Origin: Planctomycetota bacterium
GTDB taxonomy: Bacteria; Planctomycetota; UBA1135; UBA2386
Direction: 5' to 3'
DNA: 47,101 bases
NCBI GenBank assembly: GCA_016872675.1
Contig: VGZG01000022.1
Span: 1-47,101, forward strand
The position numbers and the translations under genes were made by a program. The notes under the pieces are model-generated. The model was not told where the DNA came from and made no database searches. It saw nothing but the letters and a program-made list of their open reading frames with translations. Of this stretch, positions 2,123-47,101 are shown one piece after another. Within the stretch, counting starts at the first letter, position 1; each line of letters opens with the position of its first letter.

Positions 2123-4081
2123 ATGGCCGTCCGCTCCGCCCCGTCGTTCGTCGTCGTCCTGCTCCTCGCCGCCGCCGCCAGCGCCCAGTCCCCCGCCGGG
2201 CCGCGCGTCGTGCCGTATCCGATCGACCTGCCGCCCGGCTTCGAGGCGGCGATCGCCAAGGGCACGCGCACGCGCGACGGGCGGCCGGGGCCCAAGCACT
2301 GGACCAACCACGCGAAGTACACGCTGGCGGCCGAGCTCGACCCGCAGGCGGCGCGCCTCGTCGGCAAGGCGACGATGGTCTACGAGAACCGATCGCCCGA
2401 CGCGCTCGATCGGCTGGTCGTGCACTGCTACCAGGATCTGATGAAGGCCGGCGCGCAGCGCACGCGCACGGTCACGGCGACCAACGGCTTCGAGCTCGTC
2501 GAGGCGCGCCTCGAGGGCAAGAAGATCCGCGCCACCGTGATGGACACGCGCCTGATGGTGCGCCTGCCGCAGCCGTTGCCGCCCGGCGCCTCGACGACGC
2601 TCGAGATCGACTACGCGTTCGACGTGCCCAAGGCCGGCACCGCGCCGCGCATGGGCCACGAGGCCGACAAGGTCTACTACCTCGGCTACTGGTACCCGCA
2701 GTTCGCGGTCTACGACGACGTCGAGGGCTGGGTCGCCGACCCGCACCGCGGCAACGGCGAGTTCTACATGGGCTACGCCGACTACGAGCTGCGGATCACC
2801 GCGCCGGTCGGTTACCTCGTGCGCGCCACCGGCGAGTTGCAGAATCCCGAGGCGACGCTGACCGCCGCGGCGCGGCAACGGCTGGCGCAGGCGGCGACGA
2901 GCCGCGAGATCGTGCGCGTGGTCACCAAGGAGGACCACGACAAGGGCGAGGTCACCGCGACCTCGGCCGACGGCAAGCTGACATGGCGCTTCCTCGCCAG
3001 CAACGTGCGTGACGCCGCCGTCAGCGTCGCGCGCAGCTACCTGTGGGACGCGACGCACGCCGTCGTGAAGGACAAGGACGGCCCCGGCAAGGACGGCACG
3101 TGCATGATCCACGCCGTCTACGAGCCGAACTCGGGCGACTGGGTGCGCGCCGCCGAATACGCGCGCCACACCATCGAGTTCATGTCGGCCAACGCGTACC
3201 CCTACCCGTGGCCGCACATGACCGCCTGCGAGGGCATCATCGGCGGCGGCATGGAGTACCCGATGATGACGATCTGCGGCGGCCGCCAGCCGGCCGGCGT
3301 CATCGCCCACGAGCTGTGCCACATGTGGTTCCCGATGCTGGTCGGCAACAACGAGAAGCGCTTCGCATGGCAGGACGAGGGCTTCACCACCTTCTGGACG
3401 ACGCTCTGCCGCGACGACTTCACGCAGCGCAGCAACGGCCCGCGCCGCGAGGTGATGGCCTACGGCAACCAGGTCGCCGTCGGCGAAGACGTCGTCTGCA
3501 TGCGCCACGCCGACGCCTACGGCCAGGACAACTTCGGCTTCGCCGCCTACGGCAAGCCGGCCGCAGTCCTGCACCAGCTACGCGGCCTGCTCGGCGACGA
3601 GACGTTCTTCGCGGCGTTCCGGCGCTACACGGCGGACTGGGCGTACAAGCACCCCTACCCGCACGACTTCTTCCACGCCTTCGCCGACGCCAGCAAGCAG
3701 GACCTGTCGCCGTACTTCCGCACGTGGTTCTTCGAGGCCTGGCCGCTCGACCACGCGATCGCCGAGGTCGCGCGCAAGGACGGCCGGACGACCGTGCGCC
3801 TGCTCGACAAGGGCCGCGCCGTGCACCCGTGCGTCGTCGAGGCGAAGTTCGCCGACGGCACGACGCAGCGGCAGACCGTGCCGGCGACGACGTGGTGGCA
3901 GGGCACGAGCGCGACGGTCGAGTTCGCCGGCGCCGCGGTCGAGGTGCGCCTCGACCCGGACGTGACCTGCCTCGACTGCGCGCGCGGCAACGACGTGTGG
4001 AAGGCCGCGCCCGAGAAGCCGGCCGACGTCGACGCGAAGGCCGGCCAGGACAAGAAGACCGGTCCCGACAAGCAGGACTGA
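2123..4081 (+). CDS. Secreted M1-family zinc aminopeptidase
   Basis: 652 aa with a signal peptide (VVVLLLAAAASAQS). The gluzincin signature is clear: HELCH at residues 396-400 followed by 18 residues and the third zinc ligand Glu419 (in WQDEGF). The exopeptidase motif GGMEYP lies about 20 residues before it, in place of the canonical GAMEN. The N-terminal 200 residues form the beta-saddle typical of M1 enzymes, and a helical domain follows the catalytic domain. The C-terminal 20 residues are Lys/Asp-rich and look like a linker or tail. M1 peptidases remove N-terminal residues from peptides; the signal peptide places this one outside the cytoplasm, consistent with scavenging of peptides. It runs convergent with the MazG-like gene, 13 bp apart. 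Confidence 0.93.
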   Translation: MAVRSAPSFVVVLLLAAAASAQSPAGPRVVPYPIDLPPGFEAAIAKGTRTRDGRPGPKHWTNHAKYTLAAELDPQAARLVGKATMVYENRSPDALDRLVVHCYQDLMKAGAQRTRTVTATNGFELVEARLEGKKIRATVMDTRLMVRLPQPLPPGASTTLEIDYAFDVPKAGTAPRMGHEADKVYYLGYWYPQFAVYDDVEGWVADPHRGNGEFYMGYADYELRITAPVGYLVRATGELQNPEATLTAAARQRLAQAATSREIVRVVTKEDHDKGEVTATSADGKLTWRFLASNVRDAAVSVARSYLWDATHAVVKDKDGPGKDGTCMIHAVYEPNSGDWVRAAEYARHTIEFMSANAYPYPWPHMTACEGIIGGGMEYPMMTICGGRQPAGVIAHELCHMWFPMLVGNNEKRFAWQDEGFTTFWTTLCRDDFTQRSNGPRREVMAYGNQVAVGEDVVCMRHADAYGQDNFGFAAYGKPAAVLHQLRGLLGDETFFAAFRRYTADWAYKHPYPHDFFHAFADASKQDLSPYFRTWFFEAWPLDHAIAEVARKDGRTTVRLLDKGRAVHPCVVEAKFADGTTQRQTVPATTWWQGTSATVEFAGAAVEVRLDPDVTCLDCARGNDVWKAAPEKPADVDAKAGQDKKTGPDKQD

Positions 4082-4094
4082 CGCGCCGCGGCCC

Positions 4095-4415
4095 TCAGGC
4101 CGCCGGCGGATGCGGGCAGGCGCACGGCGTCGCGGCGCACCGCGGGCAGCCGGCGCCGTACTTCTTGCGGCCGATGGCTTCGAGATCGAGGCCGTGCAGC
4201 GAAGCGAGCGTCGCGAGCCAGGCGTAGACGTCGCCGAACTCCTCCTCAAGGTTGCGCTGGTCCTTGCGGCGGATGGCGCGCACCAGTTCGCCGACCTCCT
4301 CGACGAACCACAGCAGCGTGCCGGGCACGCCGCGGCCAGAGTCACGTTTGAAGTAGACGTCCTCGATCAGGCGCTGGAACGACCCTGGCGGGCCGACGCG
4401 ATCGGGCGCGCTCAT
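4095..4415 (-). CDS. MazG-like nucleotide pyrophosphohydrolase
   Basis: 106 aa. The alpha-helical NTP-PPase motif is present: EEVGEL (residues about 39-44) and EEEFGDV (about 57-63), giving the ExxE...ExxD magnesium-binding pattern of the MazG/dUTPase-like superfamily. An unusual C-terminus carries CPRC then CAC-PH, a possible small zinc site not needed by the core fold. Family members hydrolyse (d)NTPs to monophosphate and pyrophosphate; the substrate here is unknown. The start overlaps the stop of the upstream SpoIIE-like gene by 4 bp (ATGA), so the two are probably translationally coupled. Confidence 0.85.
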   Translation of the reverse strand: MSAPDRVGPPGSFQRLIEDVYFKRDSGRGVPGTLLWFVEEVGELVRAIRRKDQRNLEEEFGDVYAWLATLASLHGLDLEAIGRKKYGAGCPRCAATPCACPHPPAA

Positions 4416-5548
4416 GCGCCGCCCGCTCCGTCGACCGACTTCTTGACCGTCAGCAGCAGCACGTCCTCCCGCAAGCCGTCGGCGCCGGCGTCCTGCTCGA
4501 TGCCGCCGAGCACGACATCCATGAACATGCGCGTGTTGCGCGGCGAACTCTGCCGCAGCATGTCGAGCAGGCCGGCCGTGCGCAGCAGCGCGTCGTTGCC
4601 GAGCACCAGGCGCGTGCCAGGGCTCATGGCGATCTCCTGCGGCCGCAGCGACTTCTCGAACACCGGGCCGTCGTCGAGGCCGAGCGCGATACCCTCGGCG
4701 TTGAGCTCCATCACCTCGTTGCGCTGGCAGATGAGCAGCGGCGTGTGCGCGCCGGCCTGGTAGAGCTTGCAGCCGTCGGGCCCGACCTGCAGCAACGTCG
4801 CTTTGGCGCAAACACCCTGCGGCAGCGCGTTCTTGCACACTCTGTTGGCGTGCGCCAGCGCCTTGCGCGGCGTCGCCGCCTGCTGCAGCGCCCGATGGAT
4901 CTCGTCGCGCGCCAGCTTGCACGCCAGCACTGCGAGCGGGCCTTGGCCTTCGGCGCTGACGACGTAGGCGATGTGGCTCGGCGCCTCGCCCGGCGCGGCG
5001 ACGAGGTCGAAGTAGTCGAGGCCGCCGCGGGATCCCGCGGCGAGCTGGCCGTCGACCTCGTGTCCCGGCACGCCTGGCAGCGTGGTCGGCAACGTCTTGT
5101 CGCGCATCTGGCGCACCAGCGGATCCATGGCGACGTTGGCGGCGCCGCCGGACTGTTCTTGCGCCGCTAGCAAGGCCTGTAGGTCGGTGGCGAGGTACTG
5201 CACCGACCGACCGAGCGCGCCGACCTCGTCGTCGCCGCCGACGCGCACCTTCACCTCGCTGCTGCCGCGACCGATCTTGCCGACCGCGAGGCCGATGTCG
5301 GTGACGCGCGAGCCGACCTTGCCGCCGAGCGCGTAGCCGACCGCGCCGATGGCGACGCCAAACAAGCCGCCGAGCAGCAAGCCGACCGTCCAGCCGCGCG
5401 AGACGACCGCCGGGTCGGCGATGCCGTCGGCGATCTGGGCGATCAGCAGGACAACCAGCAACACGCAGGCGACGAGACCGGCGCCGGCGAGGACGAGACC
5501 GTGATGGCGGGCGAGCGCGCCCGACGACTTGCTGCCTTTGCGGGCCAT
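4412..5548 (-). CDS. Membrane HAMP-SpoIIE-type (PP2C-like) phosphatase protein
   Basis: 378 aa. Two transmembrane helices (about residues 17-40 and 52-74) are followed by a HAMP-like linker (about 75-125) and a SpoIIE/PP2C-like domain (about 150-370). GLDYFDLV matches the GGDYYDV motif and REDVLLLTV matches the final DDxTLL motif. The middle metal motif DVSGHG is replaced by VVSAEGQG, so the Asp appears to be lost and activity is uncertain. Family members dephosphorylate anti-anti-sigma factors in partner-switching systems, but no STAS or anti-sigma gene is adjacent. It lies 88 bp downstream of pgpA and is coupled to the MazG-like gene. Confidence 0.7.
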   Translation of the reverse strand: MARKGSKSSGALARHHGLVLAGAGLVACVLLVVLLIAQIADGIADPAVVSRGWTVGLLLGGLFGVAIGAVGYALGGKVGSRVTDIGLAVGKIGRGSSEVKVRVGGDDEVGALGRSVQYLATDLQALLAAQEQSGGAANVAMDPLVRQMRDKTLPTTLPGVPGHEVDGQLAAGSRGGLDYFDLVAAPGEAPSHIAYVVSAEGQGPLAVLACKLARDEIHRALQQAATPRKALAHANRVCKNALPQGVCAKATLLQVGPDGCKLYQAGAHTPLLICQRNEVMELNAEGIALGLDDGPVFEKSLRPQEIAMSPGTRLVLGNDALLRTAGLLDMLRQSSPRNTRMFMDVVLGGIEQDAGADGLREDVLLLTVKKSVDGAGGA

Positions 5549-43379: not shown

Positions 43380-43544
43380 TCAGCCGCCGGCGAGCTGCGC
43401 CCGCAACCGTCGCGCGAGGCCCGCGCTCGGCTCGGTGCAGTAGCGCGTGCAGCCGACCAGCCGGTCGCCGCGGCCAAACGCGCAGACGCTCTCCGTCGTG
43501 CTCGGCACCAGGCTGACGAGCCGCTGCGGCGCGCCGTCGCTCAC
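43380..43544 (-). pseudogene. Truncated BtuF-type cobalamin-binding protein
   Basis: 54 codons from a GTG at 43544. RLVSLVPSTTESVCAFGRG and DRLVGCTRYCTEPSAGLA match the N-terminus of BtuF-type helical-backbone metal receptor proteins, which run to about 250-300 residues. After about residue 43 the match stops and a TGA follows at 43380. No continuation is visible in the other two frames downstream. Its start overlaps the stop of the iron-sulfur gene by 4 bp, as expected of a once functional operon partner. It lacks a signal peptide, which some cytoplasmic BtuF-like proteins also lack. Confidence 0.7.
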
Positions 43545-44320
43545 GGCCCGCCGCGCAGCGACTTCGGCACGAGGCCCCACGGCCCGAACCCCAGCCAGCG
43601 CCGCACCGTCTTGAGGTCGGCGCCGTGCCGGTGCATGGTTTCGCCGGTCTGATCGCGGTGCGCGACGCCGATCGGGCAGGCCGCGCGGCTGGCACAAGCA
43701 TCGGCGCAGCCGCCGCGGTGACGGTGACCGGCGCACTGCGCGGCGTCGGCGACCTTCGTCGCCTCAGCGCCGTGCGCGGGACACGCGGCGACGCACGGCC
43801 GCGCGCATGCAGCGCACGGTTCGAAGCGCTCGGCGAACGACGCGTCCGCGACCGGCCCAAACGGCAGGCCATCGCAGCAGATCGCGCCGCGCACGCGCAA
43901 CCACGGGCCATATTCGGGATGCAGCAAGAGCCCGCTGACCGGCGAGACAACGCCGAGGCCCGCGGCCTCGGCCAGGCGCTCGCCGCGCACGCGGCACGGG
44001 CCGTCGAAGGTCACGCCGGCGGCGCCGATGCCGGCCTGTCGCAGCGCAGTGACGAGATGATCGATCGCCGCGGCGACGTGCTCGGCGACGCTCGTCATCA
44101 GGCCCTGGCCGGTCTCGCGCCGCCAGCGCTCACGCTGCTGGCTTAGCCAGCGGCCGCCGCTGCCGAGCACGAGCACCGTGCCGCACCGCGGCGCGACGCC
44201 GGCGATGCGCCGCTCCTTGGGCTCGCACGCGTCGAAGCGCGCGCGGTCAACGAGGCCGAACAGGTTGAGGCCAGCGCCTTCAGCCTGGACACGCAAGGCA
44301 GTAAGCAGCTTCTGCGGCAC
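43541..44320 (-). CDS. QueG-like iron-sulfur protein in a B12 context
   Basis: 259 aa from the GTG at 44320 (VPQKLLTALRVQAEGAGLNLFGLVD); upstream codons look non-coding. The N-terminal domain resembles epoxyqueuosine reductase relatives (CGTVLVLGSGGRWL...LLLHPEYGPWLRVRGAICCD). Two cysteine clusters follow: CAACARPCVAACP and CAGHRHRGGCADACASRAACP, suited to two [4Fe-4S] clusters. The HEAT-like C-terminus of QueG is absent, and the end GFGPWGLVPKSLRGG is distinctive. QueG enzymes use cobalamin; a role in cobalamin processing or a B12-dependent reduction is inferred from the adjacent btuF remnant and riboswitch. Confidence 0.7.
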   Translation of the reverse strand: MPQKLLTALRVQAEGAGLNLFGLVDRARFDACEPKERRIAGVAPRCGTVLVLGSGGRWLSQQRERWRRETGQGLMTSVAEHVAAAIDHLVTALRQAGIGAAGVTFDGPCRVRGERLAEAAGLGVVSPVSGLLLHPEYGPWLRVRGAICCDGLPFGPVADASFAERFEPCAACARPCVAACPAHGAEATKVADAAQCAGHRHRGGCADACASRAACPIGVAHRDQTGETMHRHGADLKTVRRWLGFGPWGLVPKSLRGGP

Positions 44321-44440
44321 GTTCGGAGAGGCGACGAAACGGGCGCCGACGCGGCGCCGACGATGTTGTCGGTCGCGCGGCGCGGCAAGACAAGCCCCGC
44401 AGCGGCAGATGGCTGCTTGCGCCGCGCCACCAATGCCGTA

Positions 44441-44594
44441 CGCTCTTCTCGCCCCGATGCGGGGAAGTCCGGTGTAAATCCGGCGCTGTCCCGCAGCTGT
44501 ATCCGAGGACGAACGTCCAACATGCCACTTGCAGCCCGTGATCGGGCGGCTGGGAAGGCGGACTTGTAGGTCGAATCGGTAGCCAGAACACCCG
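44441..44594 (+). promoter_or_regulatory. Cobalamin riboswitch
   Basis: Conserved parts of the cobalamin aptamer occur in order: GGGGAAGTCCGGTG, AAATCCGG, CTGTCCCGCAGCTGT (44485-44500), ATGCCACTTGCAG (B12-box core, 44522-44534), GGGAAGGCGG (44552-44561) and AGCCAGAACACCCG (44581-44594). It points rightward, ending 67 bp before the ATG of the secreted protein at 44661. In known systems B12 binding turns the downstream gene off. Confidence 0.95.
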
Positions 44595-44601
44595 CTCGGG
44601 C

Positions 44602-44617
44602 CGGTCCTTCGGGACCG
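44602..44617 (+). terminator. UUCG hairpin in the riboswitch expression platform
   Basis: CGGTCC-TTCG-GGACCG, a very stable tetraloop hairpin 8 nt after the aptamer, followed by TTCTGTT. It is the likely switching hairpin, acting as a terminator or as part of a kissing or anti-structure. The short T-poor tail leaves the mechanism open. Confidence 0.55.
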
Positions 44618-44660
44618 TTCTGTTGCCAAGCGATCGGCGCGCTCGACGCCGACTCGACCG

Positions 44661-46010
44661 ATGACCACGATGTCCTACGGGACGCGTCTGCCGCAGGCAG
44701 CGCGTCGTTTCACTGCTCTCGCCACGCTGGCGTTCGCCCCATTCGCCCACGCCCAGCAGACGAGCGAAGGCCTCGCCTCCGGCCTGCGGCCGCTGCCGGG
44801 CACGACGTCGATCGCCGCCGTCGTCGGCGCCGATCTGGTGACGTTCAACGGCGTCGACCTCAAGGTCACGCCGCCCGGTCAGCCCAGCACGACGCTGCTG
44901 TCGCTGCCGGCGTACTTCTTCGGCTCGTTCCTGCTGCCGGTGAACGGCACGCACGTGCTGCTCGGCTACACCGGCCTCACCGGCGGCGATGCGATCTGGT
45001 TGGTGCCGCTGCAGGGCCCGGCGCCAACCCAGCCGCTCGCCAGCCTCGCGTTCAACTACGACGCCGCGCGCTTCGACGGCCAGCGCGCGCTCGTCTCGGC
45101 GCGCACCGGCGGATTCGCGGCCGCGAACAACGAGCTGTGGACGCTCGACCTGCAGACCGGCGCGACGCAGCGGGTCGCCAGCATTCCTGGCGCTTCGGGC
45201 CCGGTCGCCATCGCCGGCAACGGCGACGTCTACTACGCCACCGGCTTCGCCGGCTTCCCGACGCCGCCCGGCACGTGCACCTTCCTGCGCCTGCCACGCC
45301 CCCTCGTCGACGCCGCCATCGCCGGCAACACGATGCTCGGCCTCGCCCAGACGCAGGTGGTCGCGACCGGCCTCGACGCCGCCGGCGACATGACGTTTGA
45401 CGACGACGGCGACCTGCTGTTCGTCGACTGGTTCAACGGCCGCGTCAGCGAGATCAGCGACGCCGCTTCGGCGCAGCCGTCGATCGTGGCGAACGTCGTC
45501 AACTACGCCACGGCCGCCGTGTCCCCGGCGAGCGTGCAATTCGTTGGCGGCTCGCAGGCAGGCGTGTTCGAGCCGTTCCAGCCGACCAACGGTTCGCTGT
45601 ATGTGTTCGAGACCGACTACTTCGCCACCGCCGGCCTGCGGACGGTCGAGTCGCAACCGGGCGCGCTGCTGGTCAATGCCGCCAACCCGGTGCCCGCCGG
45701 CCTGCTGCAGTTCATCGCCAGCAGCGGGCCCGCCAACGGCATCGGCCTCTTGGCCTTCGGCATCGGCCCGACCGGGGTCACAACTCCGCTGGCGGTCCCC
45801 GGCTTCGAAGCGCCGCTGGCATGGAACAGCGCGCTGACCAACGCGCCGGTGCTGCTGCCGTTCTTGTTCGACGCCACCGGCGGCCACGTGCTGAATGCCA
45901 CCAACCCGGGCTTCGCGACGCCGTTCCCGGCGACCGTCCAGGTGGCGTTCGTCTCGAACGCCGGCCTGCTCGGCGCCACCCCGGCGGCCGCGCTGACGAT
46001 CGGCCAGTAA
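44661..46010 (+). CDS. Secreted beta-propeller-like protein under cobalamin riboswitch control
   Basis: 449 aa, ATG at 44661 (an in-frame ATG at 44670 is possible). Signal peptide RRFTALATLAFAPFAHAQ with a signal peptidase I site, no lipobox. The mature part has repeated strands like propeller blades: NELWTLDLQTGATQRVASI, VAIAGNGDVYYATG, DAAGDMTFDDDGDLLFVDWFNGRVSEI and NGSLYVFETDYF. The last 120 residues form a beta-rich tail ending ALTIGQ. Known riboswitch targets are B12 transporters, synthesis enzymes and B12-independent isozymes; this is none of these by sequence. A cobalamin-capturing role similar in principle to the beta-propeller BtuG is an inference. Confidence 0.8.
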   Translation: MTTMSYGTRLPQAARRFTALATLAFAPFAHAQQTSEGLASGLRPLPGTTSIAAVVGADLVTFNGVDLKVTPPGQPSTTLLSLPAYFFGSFLLPVNGTHVLLGYTGLTGGDAIWLVPLQGPAPTQPLASLAFNYDAARFDGQRALVSARTGGFAAANNELWTLDLQTGATQRVASIPGASGPVAIAGNGDVYYATGFAGFPTPPGTCTFLRLPRPLVDAAIAGNTMLGLAQTQVVATGLDAAGDMTFDDDGDLLFVDWFNGRVSEISDAASAQPSIVANVVNYATAAVSPASVQFVGGSQAGVFEPFQPTNGSLYVFETDYFATAGLRTVESQPGALLVNAANPVPAGLLQFIASSGPANGIGLLAFGIGPTGVTTPLAVPGFEAPLAWNSALTNAPVLLPFLFDATGGHVLNATNPGFATPFPATVQVAFVSNAGLLGATPAAALTIGQ

Positions 46011-46121: not shown

Positions 46122-47101
46122 ATGCAGAAGCAATCCGCACTCCTCGCCGTCGGCGCCCTGATCCTGCTCGCAGCCCTCGGCGTGGTCGTGCCGCAACTGC
46201 TCGGCGACACCACGCCTATCGTGCGCTGGGACGCGGCGGCCGAACTCGACGTGCCGCAGGAGCCCGCCGACCCGCAGGCCGCGACCAATGCCGACGACAC
46301 GCCGCTGCTCGAGCGCACCGAGGCGCCGCTGCCGGAGGCGCCGCTGCTAGCGGACGAGCGCGTCGACCTGCTGATGCGCGGGCGCGTCGTCGACAAGTTC
46401 CGCGGTCCGGTGCCGCAGGCGACTGTCTGGCTCGACTTCGGTCGCGGCGGGCCGCGCGGTGGCAACAACCGCCAGCGACGCGTGCCCGACCCGGTGACCA
46501 CCGACGGCGACGGGCGCTTCGCCTTCCAGGGCCAGACCTTCCGCAACCTGCGCGTCTCGCTGCAGGTGGCGCACGCGCGCTACGCGCCGGCAATGTTCGA
46601 CAAGGACGTCGGCGCCGTCGCCACTGAACTCGACCTCGGCGAGTTGACATTGCTCGCCGGCGGCCAGATCCGCGGCCGCGTCACCGACCTCGACGGCAAC
46701 GGCATCGCCGTCGCCGAACTGCGCCTGCAGCCGGAGAACGACAATCCGCTGCGCTGGCTGCGCGACCGCGAGAAGCTGGTCGCGCCGTTCCAGACGGACG
46801 TCGCCGGCTACTACGTGCGCGACCACGTCGCCAGTGGCGCTTGGGCGCTGACGGCGGTGGCCAAGGCGCACACCGAGGGCCGCTCACCGACGTTCGTCGT
46901 CGAAGAGGAGTTCCAGATCGACGTCGACGACATCCGGCTCGGCCCGGGCTTCGAGGTCACCGGCTACGTCCGCAACCAGAAGGGCGAGCCGATCGCGAAG
47001 GCGAATGTCACGATGCAGTCGGAATCGCGCCAGCGCGGCGGCGCGGCGCCCGGCGCGCCGGCGGCGGCTTCGCCGGTGGCCGCGAACCCGCACGGCGGCG
47101 A
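46122..47101 (+). CDS. Membrane-anchored carboxypeptidase-regulatory-like repeat protein (partial)
   Basis: Open from the ATG at 46122 to the right edge (at least 326 residues). An N-terminal signal anchor (LLAVGALILLAALGVVVPQLL) is followed by an acidic/Pro linker, then repeated CarboxypepD_reg-like beta-sandwich units: RGRVVDKFRGPVPQATVWLD, RGRVTDLDGNGIAVAELRL and TGYVRNQKGEPIAKANVTM. Such domains act as structural or adhesion modules on extracytoplasmic proteins. The function is unknown. Confidence 0.85.
   Translation, partial: MQKQSALLAVGALILLAALGVVVPQLLGDTTPIVRWDAAAELDVPQEPADPQAATNADDTPLLERTEAPLPEAPLLADERVDLLMRGRVVDKFRGPVPQATVWLDFGRGGPRGGNNRQRRVPDPVTTDGDGRFAFQGQTFRNLRVSLQVAHARYAPAMFDKDVGAVATELDLGELTLLAGGQIRGRVTDLDGNGIAVAELRLQPENDNPLRWLRDREKLVAPFQTDVAGYYVRDHVASGAWALTAVAKAHTEGRSPTFVVEEEFQIDVDDIRLGPGFEVTGYVRNQKGEPIAKANVTMQSESRQRGGAAPGAPAAASPVAANPHGG

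Follow-up and report, generated by a model that had tools for sequence, protein, structure and literature searches.

A beta-propeller protein family behind cobalamin riboswitches in Planctomycetota: a candidate for exported B12 capture

This locus raises the question of what an exported protein without any recognized family does behind a cobalamin riboswitch; the first-pass annotation had proposed that it captures B12 in the manner of BtuG. The window, by which we mean the whole stretch of DNA analysed, is the entire contig C22 (47101 bp), so the operon breaks off 1.1 kb past the gene in question (44661-46010, + strand).

The cobalamin riboswitch and its leader

The aptamer claimed in the annotation was confirmed over the whole model by cmscan. 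The full-length match to RF00174 lies at 44438-44613 on the + strand, covers model positions 1-189 and scores 75.7 bits (E 5.5e-17; gathering score 31.5); the B12 box, AGCCAGAACA, is located within it at 44581-44590 on the same strand. This copy is the sole RF00174 match in its own 3.58-Mb, 95%-complete assembly, and 47 nt separate the end of the match from the start of the open reading frame at 44661 on the + strand.

The leader carries a conserved hairpin, TCGGCG(CGCTCGA)CGCCGA (44634-44652, + strand), that ends 8 nt before the start codon. The hairpin GGCG(CGCnnGA)CGCC, or a close variant of it, is found in 14 leaders of family f1, similarly spaced from the B12 box: about 45-55 nt past it in most leaders and 100 in one. 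In most of them a purine-rich AGGTGG-like stretch lies between the hairpin and a start codon; the stretch is weak in the window leader. In an alignment of 11 leaders every cell of the stem was paired, and two-sided changes were observed at three of the five core pairs, each compensatory change occurring in one sequence only. None of 500 shuffles reached this number of two-sided pairs, and neither did the slid controls as a set. Given that the hairpin search required a stem, the two-sided changes count as evidence and the percentage of paired positions does not. We also considered an intrinsic-terminator platform, which was rejected. A G+C-rich hairpin, CGGTCCTTCGGGACCG, followed by TTCTGTTGC (44602-44617, + strand), is terminator-like by a consensus scan only; the scan found four such sites where 1.5 were expected from shuffles, and candidate sites were present in 8 of 25 leaders without conservation. 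Because the terminators are unconserved among leaders and the hairpin before the start codon covaries, translational control is preferred, with the hairpin at 44634-44652 as the probable expression platform to judge from the leader sequences.

The exported protein and its linkage to the riboswitch

The gene at 44661-46010 encodes a protein of 449 residues, here assigned to a family termed c0 on the basis of the open reading frame, homologues with conserved motifs and an AlphaFold2 model. The first 93 nucleotides (44661-44753, + strand) specify a predicted signal peptide, as read from the ORF translation and the alignment; it resembles a type I signal sequence, MTTMSYGTRLPQAARRFTALATLAFAPFAHA/QQ. 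The signal region of the window protein ends AHA/Q, and no N-terminal cysteine (lipobox) is present. The claim that the protein is exported is upheld by this type-I-like sequence, AHA/QQ, so far as sequence can predict it. No family in Pfam or NCBIfam matched c0 above threshold, the best weak matches being Kelch_3 (E 0.12) and ScyD/ScyE (21.5 bits, cut-off 80).

AlphaFold2, supplied with an alignment of 22 homologues, returned a model with a mean pLDDT of 90.5 and a pTM of 0.87. According to DSSP of this model, residues 38-340 (44772-45680, + strand) are predicted to form a propeller domain of 24 strands, which we read as six four-stranded blades, an assignment made from the DSSP strand string and not from coordinates. 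Residues 341-449 (45681-46007, + strand) are predicted to form a C-terminal beta-sandwich, which is less conserved than the propeller; used as a single-sequence query on its own genome to look for a widespread sorting domain, it recovered only itself and one weak match. Foldseek matches to the model were mostly beta-propellers, among which the six-bladed SMP30/gluconolactonase, Drp35 and Pizza6 were prominent (target-normalised TM-score about 0.55-0.72, about 10-17% identity), and the PDB profile matches were NHL/Pizza-type blades. The annotation had called a propeller from the repeat pattern, and the model and its Foldseek matches point to the same fold.

We found a same-strand riboswitch no more than 700 nt upstream of the first c0 copy in 46 of 56 loci across the phylum, a count drawn from related and thus not independent genomes; linked loci also occur in distant families within the phylum. 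In most genomes, several megabases contain one to three riboswitches, and chance cannot account for the linkage. Ten loci are exceptions. At L058 and L072 the contig ends within 150 nt, and in L071 a LIC_13355-like gene (see below) comes first after the riboswitch, before c0. The riboswitch is more distant in L081 and L123 (3.1 and 1.4 kb, respectively), and none was detected at the c0 locus in L075, L129, L147, L148 and L149. Within the relative set, 38 of 41 genomes gave an RF00174 match, and c0 was found in 31 by single-sequence search, to which a profile adds G029 and G037 (33/41). A sample of 294 genomes of the phylum contained c0 in 30, most with RF00174 just upstream. These counts rest on whole-genome searches; a broader search for relatives with one protein gave one locus. 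The first-pass annotation had staked its proposal on three points, a propeller fold, riboswitch linkage in related genomes and B12-dependent expression; the first two were checked, and both a predicted propeller and the linkage were found. Tandem c0 pairs occur in nine neighbourhoods (L057, L058, L059, L062, L067, L068, L069, L071 and L072), and the riboswitch-proximal copy is the more divergent of the two.

A second family of propellers, A3, occupies the same slot. It is present in exactly 7 of the 41 genomes (G027, G028, G030, G032, G034, G036 and G039), which are all the genomes of the relative set that have a riboswitch and lack c0. In all seven A3 immediately follows the riboswitch on the same strand (L100:3497-5266, L103:4137-5678, L107:5158-6567, L109:3559-5229, L110:4242-5651, G028:C22:173730-175112 and G039:C33:38372-39784). 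A3 and c0 were never found together in any of the 41 genomes, and G019 has no riboswitch, no c0 and no A3. The A3 proteins are secreted, and in the members scanned YVTN propeller repeats score above the curated cut-off. Thus A3, a family of the same order, is like c0 in holding the riboswitch-controlled position, but it is unlike c0 by profile: common ancestry of the two was not supported, a profile comparison giving a probability of 2.3%. The split between A3 and c0 follows families, with A3 in f4, f5 and f7, so that one or two replacements may suffice to explain it.

Cobamide genes at the locus and in the clade

The btuF stump noted in the neighbourhood proved to be genuine. In the remnant (43380-43535, - strand), about 40 N-terminal residues (43535-43416, - strand) match the BtuF proteins of relatives with 57-80% identity, and the open reading frame then runs directly into a short BtuF-like C-terminus (...GLARRLRAQL), indicating an in-frame internal deletion. 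The remnant lacks an intact periplasmic binding domain; the relatives have an intact BtuF at this position. The deletion in the window assembly could represent either decay or assembly collapse. Next to it lies a divergent gene of the QueG/RdhA/CblC superfamily (43541-44330, - strand), delimited by profile matches and alignment; its exact start is uncertain, the mechanical open reading frame extending to 44668, through the riboswitch. The QueG likeness that had been noted is borne out by the alignment and by a profile match to QueG (5d08, E 1.3e-4); NpRdhA is also matched (E 0.0045), and MMACHC weakly (E 0.23). Identity with the tRNA epoxyqueuosine reductase QueG itself was rejected, the protein of a relative scoring 9.6 bits with TIGR00276 against a cut-off of 200. 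The gene product is possibly a cobamide-processing (decyanating or dealkylating) enzyme. On the other side of c0, 111 nt downstream, starts a gene for a membrane-anchored protein with repeated CarboxypepD_reg domains (46122-47101, + strand; PF13620, E 3e-18), which is cut by the contig end. The corresponding cluster, c1, is present in 15 neighbourhoods and often follows c0 in the same family.

Most bacteria that require B12 cannot synthesise it. CbiC, which marks de novo corrin synthesis, was detected in none of the 41 genomes but in 7 of 14 controls; the clade therefore probably scavenges cobamides and appears unable to make them. The genome from which the window derives has six matches to B12-binding domains, five of them over the cut-off, and two pairs of a periplasmic binding protein with a FecCD permease (C118 and C123), which suggests that the organism probably needs and imports cobamides despite its broken btuF. 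FecCD permeases are present in all genomes of the relative set. One TonB-dependent receptor was detected in the same genome, and it scores best as a heme receptor; none of the c0 loci in the 41-genome set gave a Plug-domain match, the window contig ending 1.1 kb downstream. Other riboswitch copies in the group precede BtuF, DUF6580, one BtuB and a second secreted family. The B12 theme that had been proposed for the locus is strengthened by the intact BtuF adjacent in relatives, by the QueG/CblC-superfamily gene and by the absence of CbiC in 41 of 41 genomes.

Cobamide capture and the alternatives

We consider c0 most likely to be a separate, convergent, riboswitch-repressed B12-capture protein of a previously undescribed family. 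The riboswitch would sense the cellular cobamide level, and plentiful cobamide would block c0 production, probably through the conserved hairpin before the start codon, which would hide the ribosome-binding region. When cobamide is scarce, c0 would be made and exported across the inner membrane, and would bind cobamides outside the cytoplasm, either in the periplasm or at the cell surface. Capture would thereby be raised for an outer-membrane receptor, a presumed partner, and for a BtuFC-type ABC transporter. In its working c0 would be BtuG-like, as a separate family probably recruited independently. That c0 binds B12 is a prediction we think rather more probable than the contrary, and we lean to the same extent toward the full explanation, in which riboswitch repression is combined with exported cobamide capture by a separate family. 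The explanation builds on what was shown, namely the riboswitch, the predicted fold, the export signal as read from the sequence, the linkage, the covarying hairpin and the absence of CbiC. Against it, no BtuB-like receptor was found beside c0, the only TonB-dependent receptor detected in the genome scoring best as a heme receptor, and the conserved positions of c0 do not cluster sharply on a single propeller face, the D-A and B-C loops being conserved only modestly above the C-D loops. Moreover, cobalamin riboswitches also repress B12-independent isozymes, so the riboswitch is no proof that the product binds its ligand.

SMP30/gluconolactonase-type enzymes are among the nearest folds, so c0 may instead act enzymatically, as a secreted lactonase/SMP30-like propeller enzyme that processes cobamides or frees them from bound or inactive forms outside the cell. 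The closest folds are six-bladed propellers of the gluconolactonase/regucalcin/Drp35 type, and the conserved Asp/Asn/Glu positions of c0 include D134, N157, D239, D243, D247, D256 and E304. However, no Pfam enzyme-propeller family, SMP30/gluconolactonase included, matched c0 at E<=1, and blade turns may account for many of the acidic residues that are conserved. That A3, an unrelated propeller, fills the same slot also argues less for one catalytic site than for a general property of propellers, for instance a binding cavity, and we regard the enzyme as unlikely. SMP30/gluconolactonase, Drp35 and the designed Pizza6 resemble c0 in having six blades, but they have no Pfam match to it and no known link to B12.

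Cobalamin riboswitches can also repress genes that merely compensate for the lack of B12. Accordingly, c0 could be a B12-sparing or stress protein, such as an adhesin or surface component, that is secreted at low B12 and has no contact with cobamides itself, and the downstream membrane-anchored repeat protein has no known B12 role. Yet the neighbours and other riboswitch targets (BtuF, one BtuB and the QueG/CblC-superfamily gene) are B12-related, and the apparent inability of the clade to make cobamides favours a role in uptake; we judge this account improbable.

The likeness to BtuG that had been suggested was not supported past the general fold. BtuG, a surface lipoprotein with seven blades, is encoded in BtuB operons and was reported only in Bacteroidetes (PMC6143338, PMC10404256). 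We compared c0 with BtuG2 of Bacteroides thetaiotaomicron (PDB 3DSM and 8BMX; Pfam PF16819). PF16819 did not match c0 at E<=1 and was absent from 40 of 41 relatives; no BtuG chain was present among the PDB profile matches of c0 at E<=10 or within the first 50 Foldseek matches to its model. Like BtuG, c0 is an exported propeller behind a cobalamin riboswitch in cobamide scavengers; in contrast to BtuG, it has six predicted blades with an extra C-terminal beta-sandwich, no lipobox and no adjacent BtuB. Orthology of c0 with BtuG in another phylum, for which the propeller fold and the riboswitch position would speak, is thus highly improbable in view of the negative profile and structure searches, the six blades and the missing lipobox.

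The planctomycetes also include Mucisphaera calidilacus, which enters the comparison through another fold. The DUF4465 B12-binding proteins (BtuJ1/J2, D5EK51) are exported scavenging accessories of several phyla, and the member from this species has been tested (PMC13398666). They share exported B12 scavenging with the role proposed for c0, but their beta-jellyroll is unrelated to its propeller; such scavengers outside Bacteroidetes lower the surprise and leave the novelty of the c0 family unaffected. We found no description of c0 in the open-licence literature, and extracellular B12 capture in Planctomycetota is little described, the papers there that treat the phylum together with riboswitches, cobalamin and BtuB appearing to be broad surveys.

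If c0 binds B12, the BtuG strategy has evolved more than once, and unrelated propellers are interchangeable in the role. In a wider reading, BtuG in Bacteroidetes and c0 and A3 in Planctomycetota would be at least three independent recruitments of exported propellers as riboswitch-controlled cobamide capture, c0 and A3 being two new B12-binding families that substitute for each other across the families of one order; we put the chances of this reading at slightly under even. Were it true, nature would have arrived repeatedly at the propeller cavity as a means of scavenging B12. The c0 protein provides a concrete and easily expressed candidate with phylum-wide, riboswitch-linked occurrence, and it illustrates that riboswitch linkage can suggest a function for secreted proteins without a family.

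Some of the other riboswitches precede DUF6580 (PF20221) membrane proteins and one BtuB-like receptor (L082:2519-3067 and 3275-5311; L083:7114-7845), and DUF6580 is a possible membrane component related to B12. A LIC_13355-like exported family of about 340-380 residues directly follows cobalamin riboswitches at 12 loci: L071:5098-6114 and, among the non-c0 riboswitch loci, L068:9354-10460, L084, L087, L091, L092, L093, L095, L096, L097, L098 and L111. Its fold model was of low confidence (pLDDT 73.8) and gave no usable structure match. The family matches the Leptospira LIC_13355 lipoproteins distantly, with NF033170 below the cut-off, and is a candidate for another B12-related surface protein family.
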